A stretch of DNA of 23,761 nt from a virus, in IMG/VR virus record IMGVR_UViG_3300045119_000482, positions 1-23,761 of that record, one strand, 5' to 3'. This document shows, in pieces, positions 1,436 to 23,761 of this stretch (position 1 is the first letter of the stretch; every line of letters starts with the position of its first letter). Under the pieces are notes generated by a model, which was not told the origin of the DNA, searched no databases, and saw only the letters and a program-made list of their open reading frames with translations. The position numbers were made by a program, and so were the translations under genes.

Positions 1436-2028
1436 CGCCGACCTTCTCGTTCATCGTGCCGACGCTCGGCCGGCCGTCCCTGGCGCGCGCGCTGCAGTCG
1501 CTCGACACGCAGCCGCTCGAGCCGGGCGACGAGATCCTGGTGGTGGGGGCGTACGACGCGGCGCCGGTCGCCCTCGCGCACGGCGCGCGGTTCCTGCCGC
1601 ATCTGGCGGCGGGGGACGACGGCTACACCGAGCGGGCGTACGGGATGGCGCACGCCGTCGACACGCACCTCGCCTTCCTGGATGACGATGACGAGTATCT
1701 GCCGGGGGCCGTCGCCGCGATGCGCGCGCAGATCGCCGCCGCGCCGGACCGGCCGCATCTCTTCCGCATGATCGCGCCCTGGGGCGAGACGCTCTGGCGG
1801 CGCTTGGGCGTCTACCGGCGCGGGGACTTCGGCGGCGCGCAGTTCGTGACGCCGAACGATCCCGCGCGCCTCGGGACCTACTCCCAGGCCTACGAGGCGG
1901 ACTACGACTTCATCATGTCGACGCTCGAGCTCTATCCGCCGGGGGCGCTCGTCTGGTCAGACACCGTGACGTACCGCTGCGCGCCGGGCGTCGGGCGGGA
2001 CGTCTTATTGCGTGAGGCGCGCGGATGA
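1432..2028 (+). CDS. Glycosyltransferase family 2 (GT-A fold), second copy
   Basis: A 198-residue protein starting TFSFIVPTLGRPSLARAL, again the GT2 opening. HLAFLDDDDEYLPGAV near residue 82 supplies the acidic DxD motif. It is only distantly similar to the preceding copy, so this is not a recent duplication. The C-terminal YEADYDFIMSTLELYPPGALVWSD resembles acceptor-side sequence in short phage GT2 proteins. It starts on the ATG that overlaps the upstream TGA, and its own stop overlaps the head-tail connector gene by 4 bases. This ties the sugar-transfer genes to the structural operon. Acceptor and sugar are unknown; capsid or tail glycosylation is my inference. Confidence 0.8.
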   Translation: MTPTFSFIVPTLGRPSLARALQSLDTQPLEPGDEILVVGAYDAAPVALAHGARFLPHLAAGDDGYTERAYGMAHAVDTHLAFLDDDDEYLPGAVAAMRAQIAAAPDRPHLFRMIAPWGETLWRRLGVYRRGDFGGAQFVTPNDPARLGTYSQAYEADYDFIMSTLELYPPGALVWSDTVTYRCAPGVGRDVLLREARG

Positions 2029-2729
2029 CCGAGCTGACGCGCACCGACTCGCTCATTAGCACCGTCGCGGGCGGTTCGCCGCTGGTCCAGGCGCTCGACC
2101 TGGCATACGTCAAGCTCCACATACGGGCGCTGGGCGATGCCGACGACGCGCTGCTGCGGGTCTACATCGACGCCGCGGCGGCCTACTTCGAGGGGCAGAG
2201 CGGGCGGCAGCTCCTCACCGCGACGCGCGAAATGTGGCTCGATGCCTTTCCGTTTCTGGGCGCGAGCGGGATCGCGGCGCGCATCGAGCTGCCGCACCCG
2301 CCGCTCCAGCACGTCGTCTCCGTCGCGTATGTCGACGGGGCCGGCGTCGTCCAGACCCTCGGCGGCTCCCCGGCGGTCGTCCACGCGTCGGCGCCGGCCG
2401 GGCCCTATGCGACGCGCGGGAGCGTGGAACCGATCGCGGGAGGCAGCTGGCCGATCGCGCGGGTGGAAACCGGGGCGGTGCGGATCCGCTACACCTGCGG
2501 CTACGGCGACACGGCGGCCGCGATCCCGCCGCTGGTGCGTCAGATCCTCTGTTACCTCGTCGGCCACTTCGACACGTTCCGGTCGGCGGTGCATGAAGCC
2601 CGAAAGGGCCAGGTGCTCGAGTTGCCCTACGGCGTGCAGGCCCTGCTCGACGGGTTCAAGTACACCGCGCTCTCGTCCCAGGTGCTGCGCACCCAGGCCC
2701 TCCCCGATCCGGGGGTGGTATGGCCGTAA
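2025..2729 (+). CDS. Head-tail connector (gp6 / phiE125 gp8-like adaptor)
   Basis: A 234-residue protein. LDLAYVKLHIRALGDADDALLRVYIDAAAAYFEGQSGRQLL near residues 27-65 is the helical signature of the gp6-like / phiE125 gp8 head-tail adaptors, which form the ring below the portal. The middle has the usual beta-rich block (LPHPPLQHVVSVAYVDG) and a late helix VRQILCYLVGHFDTFR. The family joins the portal to the head-closure ring during neck assembly. It overlaps the last glycosyltransferase by 4 bases and the next gene by 10. Portal and capsid genes expected upstream are outside the window. Confidence 0.8.
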   Translation: MTELTRTDSLISTVAGGSPLVQALDLAYVKLHIRALGDADDALLRVYIDAAAAYFEGQSGRQLLTATREMWLDAFPFLGASGIAARIELPHPPLQHVVSVAYVDGAGVVQTLGGSPAVVHASAPAGPYATRGSVEPIAGGSWPIARVETGAVRIRYTCGYGDTAAAIPPLVRQILCYLVGHFDTFRSAVHEARKGQVLELPYGVQALLDGFKYTALSSQVLRTQALPDPGVVWP

Positions 2730-5259: not shown

Positions 5260-7170
5260 ATGGCCCTGACCGGCACGCTCACTGCCAACTTCGACTCGTT
5301 CAACAATGCCGTGGACAACGCGGTGATCCAGTTGCGCGGGTTCGAGGCCTCGACCAATAAGGTTGAGGCCTCGCTGACGAAGATGACCGACCAGTTCAGC
5401 GGGCGGCTCATCATCACCGAAGCGACATTGATGGCGAAGGCGGTCGAGAACGTCGGGGGCGTCGCGAAGTTGACCGCGGAAGAGCTCGCGCGGGTGAGTG
5501 CGACGGCGTCCGAGGCAGCGGCCAAGCTGAAAGCGATGGGCCAGGAGGTGCCGGCGAACATTCAGACGCTGGCCGACGCCGTGACGAATGTCGGCGGCGC
5601 GGCCGAGGGCACTGCGACGCACGTGGGCACGCTGCATAGCGCGATGAACCAGTTCGACGGGATGCTGGGGGCGCTGGGTATTCATATTGGCCCGGAGGTG
5701 CGCGGCCTGTCGGAGCTCGGGGACGCGTCCGGCAAGAGCGCGAGCGAGATCGGGCTGCTCGGGGTGGCCGGCCTCGCATTCGGGGCGGCCGTCGGGGGCT
5801 GGAAGATCGGGCGCGCCGTCGCCGACTTCTTCGATCTCGACACCACCATCGGCAACGCGACGGCGAAGTTACTCGGCTGGGGCGATGTGGCGGCGCAGGT
5901 GGCCGGCTCGCAAGCCGACGTCCTGGCGCGCGCCAGTGCCCGCGTCGGCTTCGAGGTCCACAGTCTGACCGATGCGATGGCGATCAACGCCCAGTCGATG
6001 GTCCCGTGGCAGAGCAACATGGAGATCTCCGCGGCGGCCGTGGCGAAGTGGCACGCCGAGATCGCCACCGTCCGGACGGCCGGGGATCTGCCGTCGCTCA
6101 CGGCCGATCTCCAATCCCAGAATTTCTCGCTGCAGGAATTATCCCGCCGCTACGGCATCTCGGTCGAAGCCCTGCAGGTGTTCACCCGCGAAACGCACGC
6201 GGCGAGTGAGGCCGAGAAGGCGGCGGCGGCCGTCACGGAAGCCGCGAATCGGCGCAAGTTGAAGGAGATGGGCGAGGAGATCGCCGCCCACAAAGAACTC
6301 CAGAAGGCGCAGGAGGAGGCCGACCGGCTCGAAGCGAAACAGATCGACGACTCCAATGTGCGCTGGGCGCAGACGGCCGCCCTGAAAATGCAACTGAGCG
6401 GCACGACGACCGAGAAGCTCACCGCGAATCTCAACGTCTGGGTCGAAGAGGAGATCAAAGCGCACAAGCGGGCCCACACCGACACGGCCGACTTCTACAC
6501 GTGGCTCGACCAGCAGGCGGCGCTGCGCGCCCAGGTGGACGAGCAGCACCGGTTGCTCGGGGATACGCGCACGCGGGAGTCCTTCGCGAAGCGCAAGGAG
6601 GCGGCCGAGGATTGGTACCGCTTCGTCATGGAGCACACGGCCAGCTTCACCAACGCGGACATCGAGCAGGCCGCGCAGCGGATGGACGCCAGCACGAAAG
6701 AATGGGTGCACTGGGGCGAGGTCTCCGGGAAGGCGCTCGACGCGACGATCGCGAAAGAGCAAAAACTGGCGGAGGCGGCCGCGGCGGCGAATCGCGCGAT
6801 GGGGGGATCGTTTACCTATGATCTCACCTCACGCGAGGGCGTGGAGCAGTACCGGGCGATGAATACCGGCGAGACGATCTCCTGGTCCGACGAGCAGATC
6901 ATGGCCTTTGCCGCCAAGGGCGGCACGCTCGAGCAGCTGATGCAGATGGGCGTCATTCACATGAGGGCCTTCGCGCAGGGCGGGCCTGTGCTCGAGGACG
7001 GCCCCATCTACGCTCACGCCGGCGAATACGTGATGCCGCGGAACAGCGGCGCGGCGGCGATGGTGAACAACTTCTACCTCGTCGACAACACCGAGACCCT
7101 CGCGCGTAAGGTCAGCGACCTGATCACGCGGCAGATGCTGCGCGGCGGCGCCCGGCTGGGGACTGTCTGA
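5260..7170 (+). CDS. Tail tape measure protein
   Basis: A 636-residue protein directly after the chaperone pair. The N-terminal third is Ala/Thr/Glu-rich helix (FEASTNKVEASLTKM, AELARVSATASEAAAKLKAM). A hydrophobic Gly/Ala segment IGLLGVAGLAFGAAVGGWKI lies near residues 162-182. A charged coiled-coil region around 300-360 contains MGEEIAAHKELQKAQEEADR. The C-terminus has FAQGGPVLEDGPIYAHAGEY, a 'GG.v......ahaGEyV.' end seen in many short tape-measure proteins. Tape length sets tail length; at about 1.5 angstrom per residue this predicts a tail near 95 nm, which is an estimate. It shares its last base with the start of the hub gene. Confidence 0.82.
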   Translation: MALTGTLTANFDSFNNAVDNAVIQLRGFEASTNKVEASLTKMTDQFSGRLIITEATLMAKAVENVGGVAKLTAEELARVSATASEAAAKLKAMGQEVPANIQTLADAVTNVGGAAEGTATHVGTLHSAMNQFDGMLGALGIHIGPEVRGLSELGDASGKSASEIGLLGVAGLAFGAAVGGWKIGRAVADFFDLDTTIGNATAKLLGWGDVAAQVAGSQADVLARASARVGFEVHSLTDAMAINAQSMVPWQSNMEISAAAVAKWHAEIATVRTAGDLPSLTADLQSQNFSLQELSRRYGISVEALQVFTRETHAASEAEKAAAAVTEAANRRKLKEMGEEIAAHKELQKAQEEADRLEAKQIDDSNVRWAQTAALKMQLSGTTTEKLTANLNVWVEEEIKAHKRAHTDTADFYTWLDQQAALRAQVDEQHRLLGDTRTRESFAKRKEAAEDWYRFVMEHTASFTNADIEQAAQRMDASTKEWVHWGEVSGKALDATIAKEQKLAEAAAAANRAMGGSFTYDLTSREGVEQYRAMNTGETISWSDEQIMAFAAKGGTLEQLMQMGVIHMRAFAQGGPVLEDGPIYAHAGEYVMPRNSGAAAMVNNFYLVDNTETLARKVSDLITRQMLRGGARLGTV

Positions 7171-9554
7171 TGCCGATGCAACCGGCGGTCCTCGGCGCCG
7201 CCAGGCTGGCGAACTTCCGGCTCGGCTACACCGAAGTCGAGGCCGAGATCAATGCGACGCGCGTCAGCATTCTTCTCGCCGGTGTCGAGGTGCGGACGCG
7301 CGTGCGGCTCGAGGGCTTCACGATCCACCACGCGCTCGGCGACAGTCCGAGCACCTGCAGCCTGACGATCGACGGGGCGGCGCCCGTGGTCGAGTCGCGG
7401 CTCCGGGTGACGATCAACCGCACGACGCCGCGGCTCCTGTTCGCCGGCGCGCTCCAGACCGTCGATCAGACCTACGAAGGCCTACCGACGTCGCTGGCGT
7501 ATCCCTGCACCGCGATCGACGACACCGCGCGCGCGGAGCGGGTCCGGCCGTTCGGGATGTGGACGAATGTGTCGGCGACGACGGTCGCGCTCGCGGTGGC
7601 CGCCGCCTGTATGCCGGACTATTCCACGGCGGGGATCGTCGCCGGCCTCCCCAACGTCAGCGTTAACCTCGACAGCAGTGAAGGGGTCAGCGGCGCGCTG
7701 CAGCAACTCGCGACGCTGATTGGCGGCTACTGGCGGATCGACGATCTGACCGTGTACCTGTTCCAGACCGACACGAGCAGCGCGCCCGATCCGATCGACA
7801 GCAGCCATCGCTTCCTGGACGATCCGCCGATTCGCATGACGCGCGACGTCAGCCAGCTCCTGACGCGCGTCTACGGCAAAGGGGGCGGCGCGGGGGCGGC
7901 CACGGCGATCGCGGTGGGGCAGACGACGCTGCCGGTCGAGGATCTGTCGTTCTTCGAAACCGGCGGCGGCCTGGTCGTGGCGCCCGGGACGCAGCGGATC
8001 AGTTACACCGGCATCTCGGCAGGGAGCTCGACCACGCAGGGCGGCAGTACGACGGTCGCGGGCGGCAGCACCACGGTGGCGGCCCGGCCCTCGCCGGCGT
8101 CCGGCGCGTCGCTCGGCGTGACGAACGGGAGTGGCCCGATTCCGGAGAACGTGGGCCCCTGGGCCGTGAAATATACCTTCGCGTATGACGACGGGGTGGA
8201 GTCGATGGCCTCGCCCGCGTCGAACCAGGTCACCGCGAGTGACCCCAACAACGCGACGCTCAACGTGTCGAGTGTCGGGCTCGGCCCGTCGCATTGCTAC
8301 TCGCGTCGGTTTTATCTCAGCCTGGCCACGAACCCGTTCTACGGCAACGCGAGCCAGACAAACCCTGGCGATCCGTTCACGCCCGTGCACAACTTCATCA
8401 TCGCCGACAACTCGACCACGACCTTGAACTGCGGACTCGCGACGGCCGGCTCGACGCTGCAACCCCCGAGCACTAACGCCAACTACAGCGCCGGGGTGAA
8501 TTACCTGTTCGTGAACGACACATCGGTCTTCTTGGCTGGCGGCGGGTCGGCGCGCGTCGGGTCGCAGGTGTTCACCTACACCGGCCGATCGACCTCGAGC
8601 GGCGTCGGCGCGCTGACGGGCGTCTCCGGGATCACCTCGACGATCTCGATCGGCAACACGATCGAGCCGGTCGTCGCCATCGGCGCGGCGACCATCCCGG
8701 TCGCCGACACCGCGATGTTCTTCGCGGGCGGCGGCTCGGCCACGGCGGGCGGACAAACCGTGGCGTATACGGGCCGCTCGACCTCGAGCGGGGCCGGGAA
8801 CCTGACCGGGGTGACCGGGGTCGTGACGGTGATCGCCGGGGGGACCGTCATCGCGTCGGTGACCCTGGCTGGCTCGACCACGCTGCCGATCGTCAACACG
8901 GCGGCGTTCAGCGCCACGGGCGGCACGGCGCGCGTCGGCGGCACCACCTTCACCTACACCGGCCGCTCGACGACCAGCGGCGCGGGGAATCTGACCGGCA
9001 TCCCGGCCAGCGGCGCGGGCGCGCTCAGCGTCACCGTGGTCGGCGGGACAACGATCCTGGTGGGCGCCGGCGGCGCCGGATCCCTGACGGGGGTGCCGGC
9101 GTCGGGCGCGGGATCGGTCCTCTACGCGATCAACCAGGGCGATCCGATCAATATCTGGGTCCAGCGCGACGACGCCGCCGCGCAGACCGTGCAAGCGGCG
9201 ATCGACACCGCGAACGGCCGCACGCCGGCCGACGGGATCTATGAAGGGCCGCCGATCGTGGATGAGCGCCGCGGAACCGCCAGTCTGACCGCCTTGTGTG
9301 ACGCGACGCTGGCGCGCTTCTCGTCGCCGATCGTCACCGTCACCTACGCGACGCGGGACGTGAAGACCCAGATCGGCAAGACCGTGCACGTCGATCTGGC
9401 CTCGCCGGCGATCGGGCCGATCGACCTGGTGATTCAGGACGTGACGATCTCGGAGATCGACGTCGTCCCCCGGGTGGCGCCGAAGTTCACCGTCATGGCG
9501 TCGAGCGTGCGGTTCTCGTTGCCGGATCTGTTGCGGCGGCTGCTGGCCGCCTAG
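7170..9554 (+). CDS. Tail hub/baseplate protein with repeat-bearing insertion
   Basis: A 794-residue protein. Residues 1-245 (VEVRTRVRLEGFTIHHALGD, RLRVTINRTTPRLLFAGALQ, GALQQLATLIGGYWRIDD, DVSQLLTRVYGKG) look like the first half of a hub protein (gpD / Dit-Tal type). Residues about 650-794 (VQAAIDTANGRTPADG, LIVQDVTISEIDV-like VIQDVTISEIDV) look like its second half. Between them sits an insertion: a 'P.V.DLSFFETGGG...SYTG' module near 255-285, an FnIII-like stretch PWAVKYTFAYDDGVESMASP near 330, then three modules of exactly 189 bp / 63 residues with the core YTGRS(S/T)(S/T)SG. 'FpvsG.i.ig.e.isYtG' modules are common in phage host-contact proteins. It starts on the ATG overlapping the tape-measure stop. 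Hub identity is inferred from order and layout. Confidence 0.7.
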   Translation: MPMQPAVLGAARLANFRLGYTEVEAEINATRVSILLAGVEVRTRVRLEGFTIHHALGDSPSTCSLTIDGAAPVVESRLRVTINRTTPRLLFAGALQTVDQTYEGLPTSLAYPCTAIDDTARAERVRPFGMWTNVSATTVALAVAAACMPDYSTAGIVAGLPNVSVNLDSSEGVSGALQQLATLIGGYWRIDDLTVYLFQTDTSSAPDPIDSSHRFLDDPPIRMTRDVSQLLTRVYGKGGGAGAATAIAVGQTTLPVEDLSFFETGGGLVVAPGTQRISYTGISAGSSTTQGGSTTVAGGSTTVAARPSPASGASLGVTNGSGPIPENVGPWAVKYTFAYDDGVESMASPASNQVTASDPNNATLNVSSVGLGPSHCYSRRFYLSLATNPFYGNASQTNPGDPFTPVHNFIIADNSTTTLNCGLATAGSTLQPPSTNANYSAGVNYLFVNDTSVFLAGGGSARVGSQVFTYTGRSTSSGVGALTGVSGITSTISIGNTIEPVVAIGAATIPVADTAMFFAGGGSATAGGQTVAYTGRSTSSGAGNLTGVTGVVTVIAGGTVIASVTLAGSTTLPIVNTAAFSATGGTARVGGTTFTYTGRSTTSGAGNLTGIPASGAGALSVTVVGGTTILVGAGGAGSLTGVPASGAGSVLYAINQGDPINIWVQRDDAAAQTVQAAIDTANGRTPADGIYEGPPIVDERRGTASLTALCDATLARFSSPIVTVTYATRDVKTQIGKTVHVDLASPAIGPIDLVIQDVTISEIDVVPRVAPKFTVMASSVRFSLPDLLRRLLAA
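8490..9060 (+). repeat. Three 189-bp tandem modules inside the hub gene
   Basis: The sequence coding YTG-R-S recurs at 8582, 8771 and 8960, exactly 189 bases apart each time. The protein repeats run V.(V/I).(D/N)T..F...GG.A..G.....YTGRS(S/T).SG.G.LTG. A looser fourth copy lies earlier, near 7930-8020. Boundaries are approximate. Copies differ mostly at silent or conservative positions, so the array is not very recent. Confidence 0.8.
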
Positions 9555-14888: not shown

Positions 14889-14964
14889 CGCGGGTCGGCG
14901 AAGCTGGGACACCGCATCGCGACACGTTCAGCCGTGGCGGTGAGTAGCGCTTCGTCGACCCGCG
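14889..14964. terminator. Long stepped inverted repeat between convergent genes
   Basis: Outer arms 14889-14904 and 14949-14964 are complementary at 15 of 16 positions. A middle pair CACCGC (14910-14915) / GCGGTG (14937-14942) and an inner pair CACG (14923-14926) / CGTG (14933-14936) nest inside it. The whole 76-nt segment can fold as one stem with small internal loops. It lies between the last late gene (+) and a minus-strand gene. No T-run follows on either strand, so it may be a Rho-assisted or bidirectional terminator or a structured RNA. Confidence 0.5.
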
Positions 14965-14974
14965 TGGAAAAGCC

Positions 14975-15277
14975 TCAGCCGGTGCGTCGCTGGGACGGCG
15001 GGCGCACGGCGACGGGGCGTGTCCCGGTCGTCTGGATCGCGGGCACGTCGCGATGGCAATGCTTACACACGATCGCGTCCGCCTTGATCCATTCGGCGCA
15101 GTGCGGGCACTTCTTGTTGGCGTCCGAGCCTGAGACGCCGCTGATGAAGAACATCAGGAACGCCAGCGGGCCGAGCAACAGCCCGCCGATCACGCCGCCG
15201 ACCATCGAGAAACCTTTCTTCTGCGCCGCGGCGATGCCGATCAGCACACCAAAGAGCGCCCAGGTGATCATCATCAT
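14975..15277 (-). CDS. Membrane protein with C-terminal zinc ribbon
   Basis: A 100-residue protein. There are two hydrophobic segments: ITWALFGVLIGIAAA (residues 4-18) and GGVIGGLLLGPLAFLMFFI (about 27-45). Then comes a zinc ribbon KKCPHCAEWIKADAIVCKHC (CxxC-x10-CxxC). Three Met codons stand in a row at the start (15277, 15274, 15271). Related small 'two-helix plus zinc ribbon' membrane proteins occur in many bacteria and their phages. It is on the strand opposite to the late genes and next to the att site, the usual place for lysogeny cargo. Function unknown; membrane sensing or host-envelope modulation is conjecture. Confidence 0.68.
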   Translation of the reverse strand: MMMITWALFGVLIGIAAAQKKGFSMVGGVIGGLLLGPLAFLMFFISGVSGSDANKKCPHCAEWIKADAIVCKHCHRDVPAIQTTGTRPVAVRPPSQRRTG

Positions 15278-15304
15278 GTCGATCTCACTTTCCTTTTAAA
15301 TCAG

Positions 15305-15511
15305 TCACATTCTTTCGGGGAAGGGGTTCACGAGCTCGAGCTGCGCCGCGCACGCCGGGCAGAGGCCGTGCGTGATCTGTCCTGGGTATCGGCGCGAGAG
15401 CGCGTCGAGGTCCGCGCGCGACGTGTGCCACGCACAGACGAGCAGCAGCACGGGCTGGGTATCGGTGAGACGCGCGACGAGCTGTTCAAACGTCGGAACG
15501 GCGGGAACCAT
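15305..15511 (-). CDS. Small protein with 'HGLCPxC' metal-binding motif
   Basis: A 68-residue protein from ATG 15511 (GTG at 15514 is the alternative). It has VCAWHTSRADLDALSRRYP, then ITHGLCPACAAQLELV. The pattern C.WH ... (S/T)HG(L/I)CP.C is a small domain seen at the ends of sensor proteins and in short stand-alone proteins, probably binding a metal. It is transcribed in line with the zinc-ribbon gene downstream (27-base gap), so both may form a cargo pair. No clear ribosome site is visible. Confidence 0.55.
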   Translation of the reverse strand: MVPAVPTFEQLVARLTDTQPVLLLVCAWHTSRADLDALSRRYPGQITHGLCPACAAQLELVNPFPERM

Positions 15512-15700
15512 CACGGAGCCTGCTTTCGGCGGCGCGGCTCCCGTAGAATCGGTGGAGCCCGTCGGCCAACTTGGTCTTGGTTGCGGGTCAGGCGTCGTTC
15601 GGTGCTTCTAACACCGGGCGGCGCCGCTTCTGTCTCTAGCTACTTACTACTCTATCGTCTCGAGAACGTGCGGACGTGAGCTATTTGTATCCAAGGGCGA

Positions 15701-15724
15701 GTGTCTGGTAGCCGTGTCTGGTAG
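15701..15724. repeat. Att region direct repeat 1 (candidate integrase arm site)
   Basis: This 24-base segment contains GTGTCTGGTAG twice, 13 bases apart. The same 24-base unit occurs at 15929-15952 with one mismatch. The two copies flank the half-tRNA core, as arm-type binding sites of tyrosine integrases do. Confidence 0.6.
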
Positions 15725-15734
15725 CGCCTGTAAG

Positions 15735-15779
15735 TGGTGGGCGCTGCAGGAGTTGAACCTGCGACCTCGTGCGTGTGAA
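15735..15779 (-). other. attP: attP core: 3' half of a tRNA-Val(CAC) gene
   Basis: Read on the minus strand this 45-base segment is the 3' part of a tRNA. It holds an anticodon loop TTCACAC with anticodon CAC, the 3' anticodon stem GCACG, variable loop AGGTC, T stem GCAGG, T loop TTCAACT, CCTGC, acceptor AGCGCCC, discriminator A and an encoded CCA. The D arm and the 5' acceptor strand (expected GGGCGCT) are absent on the 5' side, so it is not a functional tRNA gene. Tyrosine integrases commonly cross over at the anticodon loop and carry the 3' half to restore the host gene. The integrase gene begins its 3' end 50 bases away. Confidence 0.85.
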
Positions 15780-15829
15780 GCCCGAAGATAGTCCAGCCTT
15801 TTACTCGTTTTCACCCAATGAATCCGGCC

Positions 15830-17098
15830 TTATTTCGCGATCCGGAGGCCGGATCGCCCCTGATTATGCCGTTTCGTATACTGCGATTTCCTTAACAATA
15901 TCGTCTGGTTTTCAGTCGTTTTCTGAAAGTGTCTGGTAGTCGTGTCTGGTAGTGGCGGTGTGGCGCGCGCGGCGAGGAACGCCGCGGCGGCGTCGGTCGC
16001 GGCCTGGAGATGCGCCGGCACGGCCGCGAGTCGATAGCGTTTCGTGGTGACCGGGTTCTTGTGGTCGAGCAGCTCGCCGGTGACCGCGTCGCTGCCGGTC
16101 AGTTGAAAGATCAGCGAGCCGAACGAGTGGCGCAGGTCGTAGGGCACCATGTCGGACAGGTCGACGTTGGGATTGACCTTGCGGAGCTCGGCCTGCGCCA
16201 GGTCGCGCGCGCGGATGAACGTCTTGCGCAGCGAGCCCCGGGTGAACGGCCCGAAGGCGTCCGCGGCGACGAAGTCGCGGAACGCCTCGACGGCCAGGGG
16301 GAGCAGGGGCTTTCGTTTGAAGCCGACGGCGCCGGGCTTGCCTTTCTTCCGTCCGCGGACGAGGAGGTTGGGCGGCGTGTCGTCCAGGTGGAGATCCTTC
16401 GGCTGGACGAGTTTCAACTGCGCCGGCGTGAGGGGCGCGTACGCCAGCACGCGCAGCCGGATGGCGCCCAGGCTCGGCAGGGGGCGCTTCTCGGGCAGGA
16501 GGCGGCTCGGCTGGCCCTTCGCGGAGCGCCGCCACTTCACCCGGAGGAAATACAGGATCGTGTCGACGATCGCGTAGTCGACGCCGCGCGGTTCGGCCTC
16601 GGGCTCGATCTCGCGATCGATCTCGCGGAACGGGTTCGGCGCGTTCTCGCCGTCAAGCACGGTGTAGACGTGGGCGAGGGCATCGCGGCACTTGTTCACC
16701 GTCGACGCCGCGTACCCGGCGGCGATCAGGGTGTTGAGCGCCCGCCGCAGCCGCGGCGCGTCGAGTGTGTGCCACGGCACGTCGCCGAGGCCGGCCTGGC
16801 CACACCACCACTCGAAGAAGCGGATCCGCTGGGTGCGGTTGTCGTCGGAGAGTTTGGCGGTCGCCAAGTACGTGACGATCTTGGCGCGTACGGTGCCGCG
16901 CGTGACGCCGGCGCCGCGGGCCTTCCGCAGCTTCAACTTTTCGGTGTCGCGCCAGATGATCATGTCCTCGAGCCGCGCCGACGGCGGGAAGCGCTCGGTG
17001 GTCTCGAGCAGTTCGGTCTTCTTCGAGCCGAGGCAGGCCCGGACCTCGTAGCCGCTTGCGTCTTGGTAGATGCCGGTCGCGATGCGTTTCTTGGTCAT
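15830..17098 (-). CDS. int: Tyrosine-type site-specific integrase, with unusual catalytic residues
   Basis: A 422-residue protein. The N-terminal arm-binding part has GIYQDASGYEVRACLGSKKT. The core-binding helices lie around residues 65-150. The catalytic part has APLTPAQLKL (221-230), a basic hairpin GRKKGKPGAVGFKRKP, YDLRHSF (320-326), LLDHKNPVTTKRY with His346 and nucleophile Tyr355. At the place of the first catalytic Arg (usually T-G-L-R-..-E-L) there is Thr224. The usual His of HxLRH is Tyr320. The second Arg, the late His and the Tyr are present. Start ATG 17098 has AGGA 7 bases upstream. Next to a half-tRNA att site on the same strand as the tRNA, it catalyses integration. Its 3' end overlaps the second arm-type repeat. 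Confidence 0.88.
   Translation of the reverse strand: MTKKRIATGIYQDASGYEVRACLGSKKTELLETTERFPPSARLEDMIIWRDTEKLKLRKARGAGVTRGTVRAKIVTYLATAKLSDDNRTQRIRFFEWWCGQAGLGDVPWHTLDAPRLRRALNTLIAAGYAASTVNKCRDALAHVYTVLDGENAPNPFREIDREIEPEAEPRGVDYAIVDTILYFLRVKWRRSAKGQPSRLLPEKRPLPSLGAIRLRVLAYAPLTPAQLKLVQPKDLHLDDTPPNLLVRGRKKGKPGAVGFKRKPLLPLAVEAFRDFVAADAFGPFTRGSLRKTFIRARDLAQAELRKVNPNVDLSDMVPYDLRHSFGSLIFQLTGSDAVTGELLDHKNPVTTKRYRLAAVPAHLQAATDAAAAFLAARATPPLPDTTTRHFQKTTENQTILLRKSQYTKRHNQGRSGLRIAK
15837..15857. other. Hairpin at the 3' end of the integrase gene
   Basis: GCGATCCGG and CCGGATCGC are perfectly complementary around the loop AGG. It overlaps the last codons of the integrase and has no T-run after it. By position it recalls the retroregulatory sib hairpin after lambda int, but the role is inferred. 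Confidence 0.45.
15929..15952. repeat. Att region direct repeat 2 (candidate integrase arm site)
   Basis: Second copy of the 24-base unit (23 of 24 identical to 15701-15724), again two GTGTCTGGTAG elements 13 bases apart. A shorter relative, GTCTGGT, lies at 15903-15909. It falls inside the integrase coding sequence, where it encodes the stretch around LPDTTTRH. Confidence 0.6.
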
Positions 17099-17675: not shown

Positions 17676-18053
17676 TTATCGGCGAGAGCGCCCGCGTCCG
17701 CGGGATCGCGCGCGACTCCAGTCCCGAAGCAGTTCCAGGGCCAGTTGCCGCGAGGCGGGCGAGAGCGCGCGATACGCGGCGGTAAGCGCCGCCTCTTCGG
17801 GATCCTTCGGGATGTCGAGCACGGCCGTGAGGGAATGGCCGAACACCGCCGCGATTTTCTGGAGGGTTTCCAGATCCGCATCGAACTCGGCCGCGAGGTA
17901 GCGGCTCGTCCACGCTTGGTTCCGCCCGATGCGTTCACTCAAGGCGGTCTGGGTCAAGCCGGTCGATTCAATCCACCGTTTAATCTGGCGACGGGCGAGC
18001 TGGTCTAACGTCTCTGGCGGCTGCGGCATGCCGTCTAGGTTAGGTAATTCCAT
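17676..18053 (-). CDS. XRE-family repressor (CI-like)
   Basis: A 125-residue protein. The HTH domain covers about residues 19-75: ARRQIKRWIESTGLTQTALS, ERIGRNQAWTSRYLAAEFDA and LETLQKIAAVFG, the five-helix lambda-repressor-like fold. The C-terminal part SPASRQLALELLRDW is a short helical segment of the kind used for dimerisation, followed by an Arg-rich end. It has no peptidase domain, so induction by RecA-driven self-cleavage is unlikely. It faces the Cro-like gene across 83 bases that hold inverted-repeat operators and opposed promoters. It most likely maintains lysogeny by repressing the rightward promoter. Confidence 0.82.
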   Translation of the reverse strand: MELPNLDGMPQPPETLDQLARRQIKRWIESTGLTQTALSERIGRNQAWTSRYLAAEFDADLETLQKIAAVFGHSLTAVLDIPKDPEEAALTAAYRALSPASRQLALELLRDWSRARSRGRGRSRR

Positions 18054-18136: not shown

Positions 18137-18382
18137 ATGGGTACTTCACGCCGCGCGCCGGCCACCTACCCGGATCTCGCCAGCTATATCTCCGGCACCG
18201 GCGACACGCAGGCCAACATCGCCCGGCGCGTCGGGGCGACTCAGGCGCACATCTGCCGGATCGCGCGGGGCCAGGCCGTGCCGCGGGCGCTGCTGGCAGC
18301 GCGGATTGCCGCCTACGCGGGTATTCCGCTCGAGTCCTTTACCCGGCGGTATCTGGCGACGCACGCCGGGCGGGTCGCATGA
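18137..18382 (+). CDS. Cro-like small HTH protein
   Basis: An 81-residue protein. YPDLASYISGTGDTQANIAR followed by RVGATQAHICRIARGQAVPR is a lambda-repressor/Cro-type HTH (residues about 11-50). LLAARIAAYAGIPLESFTRR completes the fold. It is the first gene of the rightward early operon and is transcribed divergently from the repressor. It would bind the same operators and shut off lysogenic repression. The predicted mRNA leader is too short for a normal ribosome site. Confidence 0.75.
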   Translation: MGTSRRAPATYPDLASYISGTGDTQANIARRVGATQAHICRIARGQAVPRALLAARIAAYAGIPLESFTRRYLATHAGRVA

Positions 18383-23032: not shown

Positions 23033-23302
23033 ATGGCGACACACTGCCCGCCCCCGCGCGCCAACCCGTCCTTGTCGTCCTTGTCCTCGGGTGTTTCACG
23101 TGAAACGTGTGGAACAGGTCGTCCGTGTAGTAATCCGGACTGTCGCAATCCGCGTCGTCCTGGTCAACGCTACTGTCGGACCTGTCATGCCGCCACGATG
23201 AAGAACTACCGCGCGACCTGGAAACAGGATCGCCGCTCGGCGGCCTGGGCACGATCCACGTCTCGATTAGCGAACGAAACGCGGGCCTGGAGCGACCGAT
23301 GA
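23033..23302 (+). CDS. Small zinc-finger protein carrying a parS site in its coding sequence
   Basis: An 89-residue protein. A low-complexity Pro/Ser N-terminus (PPPRANPSLSSLSSG) leads to VSRET, encoded by the parS-like site. Then comes CSNPDCRNPRRPGQRYCRTC (C-x4-C-x9-C-x2-C), a small zinc finger of the type found beside phage HNH genes. A basic helix (RATWKQDRRSAAWARSTSRL) ends the protein. It overlaps the HNH gene by 4 bases. It may assist the endonuclease or terminase; the DNA-level parS function could be independent of the protein. Confidence 0.65.
   Translation: MATHCPPPRANPSLSSLSSGVSRETCGTGRPCSNPDCRNPRRPGQRYCRTCHAATMKNYRATWKQDRRSAAWARSTSRLANETRAWSDR
23092..23107. other. parS: parS-like ParB binding site
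   Basis: TGTTTCACGTGAAACG matches the conserved bacterial parS consensus TGTTTCACGTGAAACA at 15 of 16 positions. The inner 14 bases GTTTCACGTGAAAC are a perfect palindrome. I find no second copy in the window and no parA or parB. Confidence 0.82.
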
Positions 23303-23742
23303 GCGCCCTGCATCCGTGTGCTATGCCGCACTGTCCCGCCCTGTTGCCGCGCGGCGTGAGCCGGTGTCCGACGCATGCGCGTCAGCAGGAGCAGATCCGC
23401 GGGACGGCGCACGCGCGCGGCTACACCTCCCGCGACTGGCAGCCCTTCCGCCGGCGCTTCCTCGCCGCCCTGGTGCAGGCGGGGATCGGGCCGGTGTGTG
23501 GGGCCGCGCTGCCAGATGGACCGAGGCAGCGCGACAGCGCGTGCCGCGACGCGGGGCTCTTCACCTTCACGAGCGCCGATGGCTCGAGCTTGCATCTCGA
23601 TCATGAACCAGCGCTGCGGGACGACGAGCGATCGGATGTGCGCGCGGTCTGTGACCTGAATCGCATCGTGTTGAAATGTCAGGCGTGTCATGCCGCGAAA
23701 ACCGCGCGAGATGGCGGCAGGGGGGGGATTCAAAGTGTTTGA
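23299..23742 (+). CDS. HNH endonuclease (terminase-associated type)
   Basis: A 147-residue protein. The N-terminal CAMPHCPALLPRGVSRCPTH is a small metal-binding part. Then come GYTSRDWQPFRRRFLAAL, LHLDHEPALRDD (the HD of the HNH motif), and NRIVLKCQACHAAKTARDGG (N and H with CxxC). This order is the phage HNH type located beside terminase in cos phages, where it is needed for DNA cutting during packaging. The terminase genes are expected just right of the window. An eight-G run (23715-23722) lies in the last codons, where a slip would extend the frame. Confidence 0.8.
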   Translation: MSALHPCAMPHCPALLPRGVSRCPTHARQQEQIRGTAHARGYTSRDWQPFRRRFLAALVQAGIGPVCGAALPDGPRQRDSACRDAGLFTFTSADGSSLHLDHEPALRDDERSDVRAVCDLNRIVLKCQACHAAKTARDGGRGGIQSV

Positions 23743-23761
23743 CCGATCGGCCCTCCGAAAC

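Follow-up and report, generated by a model that had tools for sequence, protein, structure and literature searches.

Sites of integration within tRNA genes are catalogued in Islander, where a 3' tDNA fragment was found in 3760 of 3919 islands and the sites were centred on the anticodon in 2083 (PMC4383910). For the phage HK97, a 10-nt 3' overhang has been described, together with an HNH protein that stimulates cleavage (PMC11331095). Tyrosine integrases can differ in the place of the first catalytic arginine (Arg I): the CTnDOT integrase (IntDOT) uses another, downstream arginine (Smyshlyaev et al. 2021, PMC8138268). The IntDes integrases, reported only from Desulfovibrio and of a function described as unknown, have a shifted arginine and a tyrosine in place of the first histidine (PMC8138268).

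In this work, we analyzed a stretch of viral DNA of 23,761 nucleotides (the window) that carries an attP of the ordinary, standard tRNA type. As in the anticodon class of tRNA attP (site A in Islander, PMC4383910), the tRNA segment is a 3' fragment that starts at the anticodon, lies beside the integrase gene (int), and is gene-restoring. The locus shares with HK97-type cos packaging the order HNH, cos, TerS, TerL, a homologous TerL, and a similar overhang length, whereas its overhang is predicted to be 9 nt and its end sequence is its own. Its integrase resembles that of lambda in the three-domain fold and in the putative arm-type sites flanking the attP core, but it lacks Arg I, has tandem same-direction arm pairs, and is only 14% identical. 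Like IntDOT and IntDes, to which it is likened by description only, it lacks the first catalytic arginine at the usual place and has another conserved arginine; it also shares with IntDes the tyrosine for the first histidine. IntDOT represents CTnDOT-type conjugative elements, whereas the family of the window consists of soil-phage integrases with a tRNA attP (PMC8138268).

To the description of the attP, the analysis adds a cos end, a host at class level, the reversed orientation of the core, and a family of integrases in which an arginine has probably been relocated. We hold with high confidence that the window derives from cos-cut DNA of a temperate cos phage, probably of Vicinamibacteria, in which positions 15701-15952 would form the attP and Arg250 of the integrase would replace Arg I.

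Gene order and the predicted genome end

The initial annotation took the window for an unintegrated phage genome, with phage genes on both flanks of the core and with the missing head genes fitting between the right (HNH) and left edges. In the window, the lysis-side genes run without a break into the attP and the integrase gene; late and lysis-side genes lie to the left of the attP, and int, repressor, and replication genes to the right (Table 1). The same gene order and the same attP junction are found in IMG/VR record IMGVR_UViG_3300047408_000092 (31.5 kb; G001), which carries terS, terL, protease-capsid, portal, and methylase genes at the side that is truncated in the window, as the proposed placement had anticipated. 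The connector assigned to the left edge is present, but as the fourth gene; the leftmost genes (3-2028) encode glycosyltransferases, which stand amid structural genes, between a methylase (in G001) and the connector. On G001, the counterpart of window base 2 lies about 9.7 kb from the terS end, so a complete genome of about 33.5 kb is expected, and the window would represent about 70% of this temperate HK97-type cos phage genome. In the tail region, a 794-aa protein (7170-9554) has internal repeats at 8516-9006.

Table 1. Coordinates of the principal features of the window
Feature	Position	Strand	Basis
Head-tail connector	2025..2729	+	phrog_442, 5.2e-18; PF05135
Variable insert adjoining attP	14901..15683	-	missing from G001
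Distal (lysis-side) tandem pair, putative arm-type sites GTGTCTGGTAG	15701..15724	+	exact repeats; plan recurs in related loci
attP core, 47 bp, tRNA-Val(CAC) 3' half, anticodon stem/loop to CCA	15735..15781	-	
Inverted repeat across int stop codon, possible terminator	15822..15854	.	
Tyrosine integrase, 422 aa	15830..17098	-	phrog_1 integrase, 1.1e-13; alignments; fold
Int-side tandem pair, putative arm-type sites	15929..15952	+	exact repeats; plan recurs in related loci
Arg250 codon, proposed relocated catalytic arginine	16349..16351	-	conserved in Arg-I-less relatives
Thr224 codon, Arg I position	16427..16429	-	box I = APLTPAQL
HTH transcriptional regulator, probable lysogeny repressor	17676..18053	-	phrog_1373, 8.1e-9
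Divergent HTH regulator, Cro-like	18137..18382	+	phrog_6831, 2.2e-5
HNH endonuclease adjoining cos end	23299..23742	+	phrog_144, 6.1e-11
Predicted right cohesive end, terminus ...CCGAAAC	23743..23761	+	G001, L113, five read-through contigs

To the left of the arm sites, the window has an insert of about 780 bp, across which G001 joins cleanly. Its minus-strand ORFs encode, by domain matches, a zinc-ribbon membrane protein (14975-15277) and a 69-aa product (15305-15514). Host DNA captured through imprecise excision was dismissed as the origin of this insert, because neither the core nor the arms are damaged and the G001 join is clean.

At the right edge, the order is HNH, cos, terS (terS and terL being taken from G001), and window base 23761 is the same base as base 1 of G001. 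The HNH search yielded two loci only. The upstream length was usable in 76 contigs of the terL family; 18 of these terminate 420-600 bp before terL, and many of them begin with a similar motif. In a different dataset, a contig whose HNH protein is 70% identical to that of the window (IMGVR_UViG_3300005290_000037; L113) ends with GGCCGTCCCAAAC and then AGATCGGAAGAGC, at the base homologous to the predicted cos end. We take AGATCGGAAGAGC to be Illumina adapter, so library molecules ended at that base. Five other contigs (L009, L024, L064, L078, and G196 (L121)) read through the join, and in each of them ...AAAC is separated from the contig-start motif by exactly 9 nt; L064 and L078 count for less than L009, L024, and G196, because the motif was found partly by a pattern that fixes the 9-nt gap. 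In L024, the motif lies precisely where L023 and L025 begin. The TerL encoded in G001 is HK97-like (match to 6z6d, 1.2e-42); combined with the HK97 overhang and the 9-nt gap, this makes a 9-nt 3' HK97-like overhang the best prediction, with the 3' polarity presumed from the comparison. Upstream of cos, L009 also encodes a 292-aa zinc-ribbon-like ORF (174-1052), the N-terminus of which, MGGKGSGGARVGSG, resembles that of TerS.

The right edge of the window looks like a physical cos end, and unintegrated DNA that was packaged, or otherwise cut at cos, is the most likely source of the contig. A check for circularity or terminal repeats, as suggested initially, revealed no terminal overlap within the window; with a right edge that behaves as a cos end instead, such a test would mislead, as a complete virion genome would also look linear. 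The view of the window as an unintegrated phage genome is borne out by its contiguous lysis genes, attP, and int, by the same junction in G001, and by the cos-like edge. Since a tandem prophage would give the same junction, more weight falls on the cos end. Alternatively, the source could be a double lysogen with prophages in tandem, or a circle excised within the cell, either of which would have an identical lysis-attP-int junction, and the five read-through contigs point to uncut forms in some samples. We regard this origin as improbable, because uncut DNA is expected to be read through, but the window stops where homologous molecules end with adapter and related contigs pile up. A little less probable still is a mere assembly break in sequence common with G001, without a physical DNA end. 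It would be possible judging from these two records alone, since their terminal 157 bases are identical, but adapter follows the homologous base in L113, with its 70%-identical HNH protein and other dataset, and many other contigs begin at the corresponding left end. With a cos end as the preferred reading, the genome end of the phage is predicted to the base, and metagenomic contigs ending at HNH and cos become readable as packaged DNA, a lack of circularity giving no indication that a genome is incomplete.

The integrase family and its attachment-site plan

The AlphaFold model of the integrase (mean pLDDT 78, pTM 0.55) has the tyrosine recombinase fold and aligns to lambda Int (residues 6-362) and Tn1549 Int with Z of about 16. 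The lysine (Lys252), box II arginine (Arg323), histidine (His346), and nucleophilic tyrosine (Tyr355) are all present; in box I, Arg I is absent and Thr224 is found instead. In an alignment of relatives, from which two unreliable rows were set aside, the Arg I column holds R in 7 sequences and one of T, P, A, and S in the other 43. Arginine at window position 250, two residues before Lys252, is present in 43/43 relatives that lack Arg I versus 1/7 of those that have it, although these rows should not be counted as separate events, since about three switches in Arg I state account for the tree. The window falls within a well-supported clade of 11. Tyr320, in the place of the box II histidine, was kept out of the evidence because the search pattern demanded tyrosine there. 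On inspection, three Vicinamibacteria integrases from outside the aligned set follow the pattern: Arg I is missing from L092 and L094, which have GRRKG and PRRKG, and L093 has TGLR without such an arginine.

Judging from this covariation, Arg250, which is close to Lys252, most likely serves the integrase instead of the missing Arg I. The pattern fits a relocated first arginine of the kind known for IntDOT and IntDes, as far as their published description allows the two to be likened. In CTnDOT, the substitute arginine also lies two residues before the lysine. Among phage records, such a relocation is essentially absent: in a tblastn search of 50,697 records, the window integrase and L094 matched nothing, and L114 had three weak matches. 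In the phage records covered, no integrase is thus similar to that of this phage, which is a member of a poorly known family where an essential catalytic residue seems to have been relocated within the protein. This family offers many natural cases for asking whether a tyrosine recombinase can move Arg I, and it may point to a role for the active site of the IntDes type, for which the function is described as unknown (PMC8138268).

Around the core, the 11-bp repeat GTGTCTGGTAG occurs in four exact copies with a 13-bp period, arranged as two tandem pairs, one on each side (starts 15701/15714 and 15929/15942); we interpret the repeats as putative arm-type integrase sites. The int-side pair falls within the 3' coding end of int itself. 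Between the window and G001, int and att differ by 4.2%, and the 147 bp of 15696-15842 have zero differences (P of about 0.002 under a uniform rate). The arm plan, defined as four sites of the same word in two pairs with an 11-14-bp period and 172-251 bp between pairs, was found around the integrase 3' end in 24/44 related loci versus 4/200 control windows, with repeat words that vary from phage to phage. A tRNA 3' half lies near int in about 26 Arg-I-less loci (G001 included) and in some Arg-I-bearing ones, and the density of T-arm motifs is six times higher near int than elsewhere (0.51/kb versus 0.08/kb). These halves mostly have the anticodon CCU or CCG (Arg), and the CCA end usually faces int (a convergent core), whereas the half in the window is of the Val type and runs in the opposite direction, co-directional with int. 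Loci L129, L134, and L147, with full tRNA-Arg calls by ARAGORN, were rejected as integrated copies and taken as attP halves, because L128 and L129 have the region in common and the predicted 5' halves pair badly.

We consider it fairly likely that these integrases form a widespread clade of uncultivated soil phages in which Arg I has moved to the second position before the lysine, and that they are active and target tRNA genes, mostly tRNA-Arg, via a conserved attP plan with a tRNA 3' half between two tandem arm-site pairs. In the lineage of the window, the core would have been flipped between the arms and the target changed to tRNA-Val. Decay of the attP module, with an integrase that no longer works, is a distinctly unlikely explanation. 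With Thr224 at the Arg I position, the enzyme could be weak or dead, but the other catalytic residues and the arginine at 250 in every Arg-I-less relative are retained, the att region is unchanged over 147 bp between the window and G001, tRNA halves persist in about 26 such loci and the arm plan in 24 of 44, and IntDOT works with a substitute arginine (PMC8138268).

The tRNA half and its probable target and host

The minus strand from 15781 to 15735 reads GCTTCACACGCACGAGGTCGCAGGTTCAACTCCTGCAGCGCCCACCA, the 3' half of tRNA-Val(CAC), and comprises the anticodon loop (UU-CAC-AC), the 3' anticodon stem, variable loop, T-arm, 3' acceptor strand, and CCA; the int stop is about 50 bp away. The 45 bases first proposed as the core (15735-15779, the reverse complement of TTCACACGCACGAGGTCGCAGGTTCAACTCCTGCAGCGCCCACCA) are real, but the host tRNA genes share with the phage two further anticodon-stem bases (GC, to 15781), so the full core is 47 bp. 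No complete tRNA was called by ARAGORN in the window, the attP by itself giving none, and an Rfam tRNA search of the window, which misses the half tRNA, returned no match. When the phage core is joined in silico to a 5' half from the tRNA-Val genes of three Acidobacteriota, the hybrid folds as a complete tRNA-Val(cac) in all three cases; the converse hybrid of phage flank and host 3' half gives no tRNA fold. The core matches the nearest of these genes (L090) at 46/47 positions, as against a maximum of 32/47 in shuffled windows (n=200). The region is a tRNA-type attP, as was deduced initially from the missing 5' half. A decayed phage-encoded tRNA gene in place of an attachment site is highly implausible: tRNA genes can occur in phages, but this half begins at the anticodon, is intact to CCA, and lies beside int between arm repeats, and many relatives have tRNA halves at the same place.

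A search of GTDB species representatives for the exact core 42-mer gave no match, and a slightly degenerate pattern recovered three genome contigs only (L088, L089, and L090), all from Acidobacteriota MAGs and each with a full tRNA-Val(CAC). The L090 gene departs from the core by a single base (T-loop position 57, G where the phage has A), and those of L088 and L089 by two (45/47), so the initial suggestion of an intact host tRNA-Val(CAC) with the same bases holds to the level of near-matches. The three genomes were all found within one class search; from the title of L088 (Luteitalea sp.) and general taxonomy, we take this class to be Vicinamibacteria. With the nearest attB candidates one or two bases off and all in this class, the host probably belongs to the Vicinamibacteria (Acidobacteriota), a prediction for a soil temperate phage that applies at class level only. 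Close integrase relatives were absent from 193 Vicinamibacteria (best 31-35%), and, with no exact attB among the GTDB representatives either, no occupied attL/attR pair came to light, although both sets would miss an unsampled host; no integrated relative of the phage was found. TerL matches in Vicinamibacteria (32-38%) were dismissed as a host clue, being too distant to name one, and a literature search on acidobacterial phage attP returned nothing relevant.

After injection, the cohesive ends of the phage would anneal and the genome would circularise. The integrase would then bridge the arm sites, held by its N-terminal domain, and the core, held by the other domains, and recombination would presumably take place between the anticodon-loop region of attP and a host tRNA-Val(CAC) gene, which the phage copy would restore. 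Because the core is reversed and co-directional with int, the restored tRNA should stand at the lysis-gene end of the prophage, with the displaced fragment next to int. At a distant Arg-I-less integrase locus (L172:4599), the tRNA half is likewise of the tRNA-Val(CAC) type, so targeting of tRNA-Val(CAC) may have arisen more than once.
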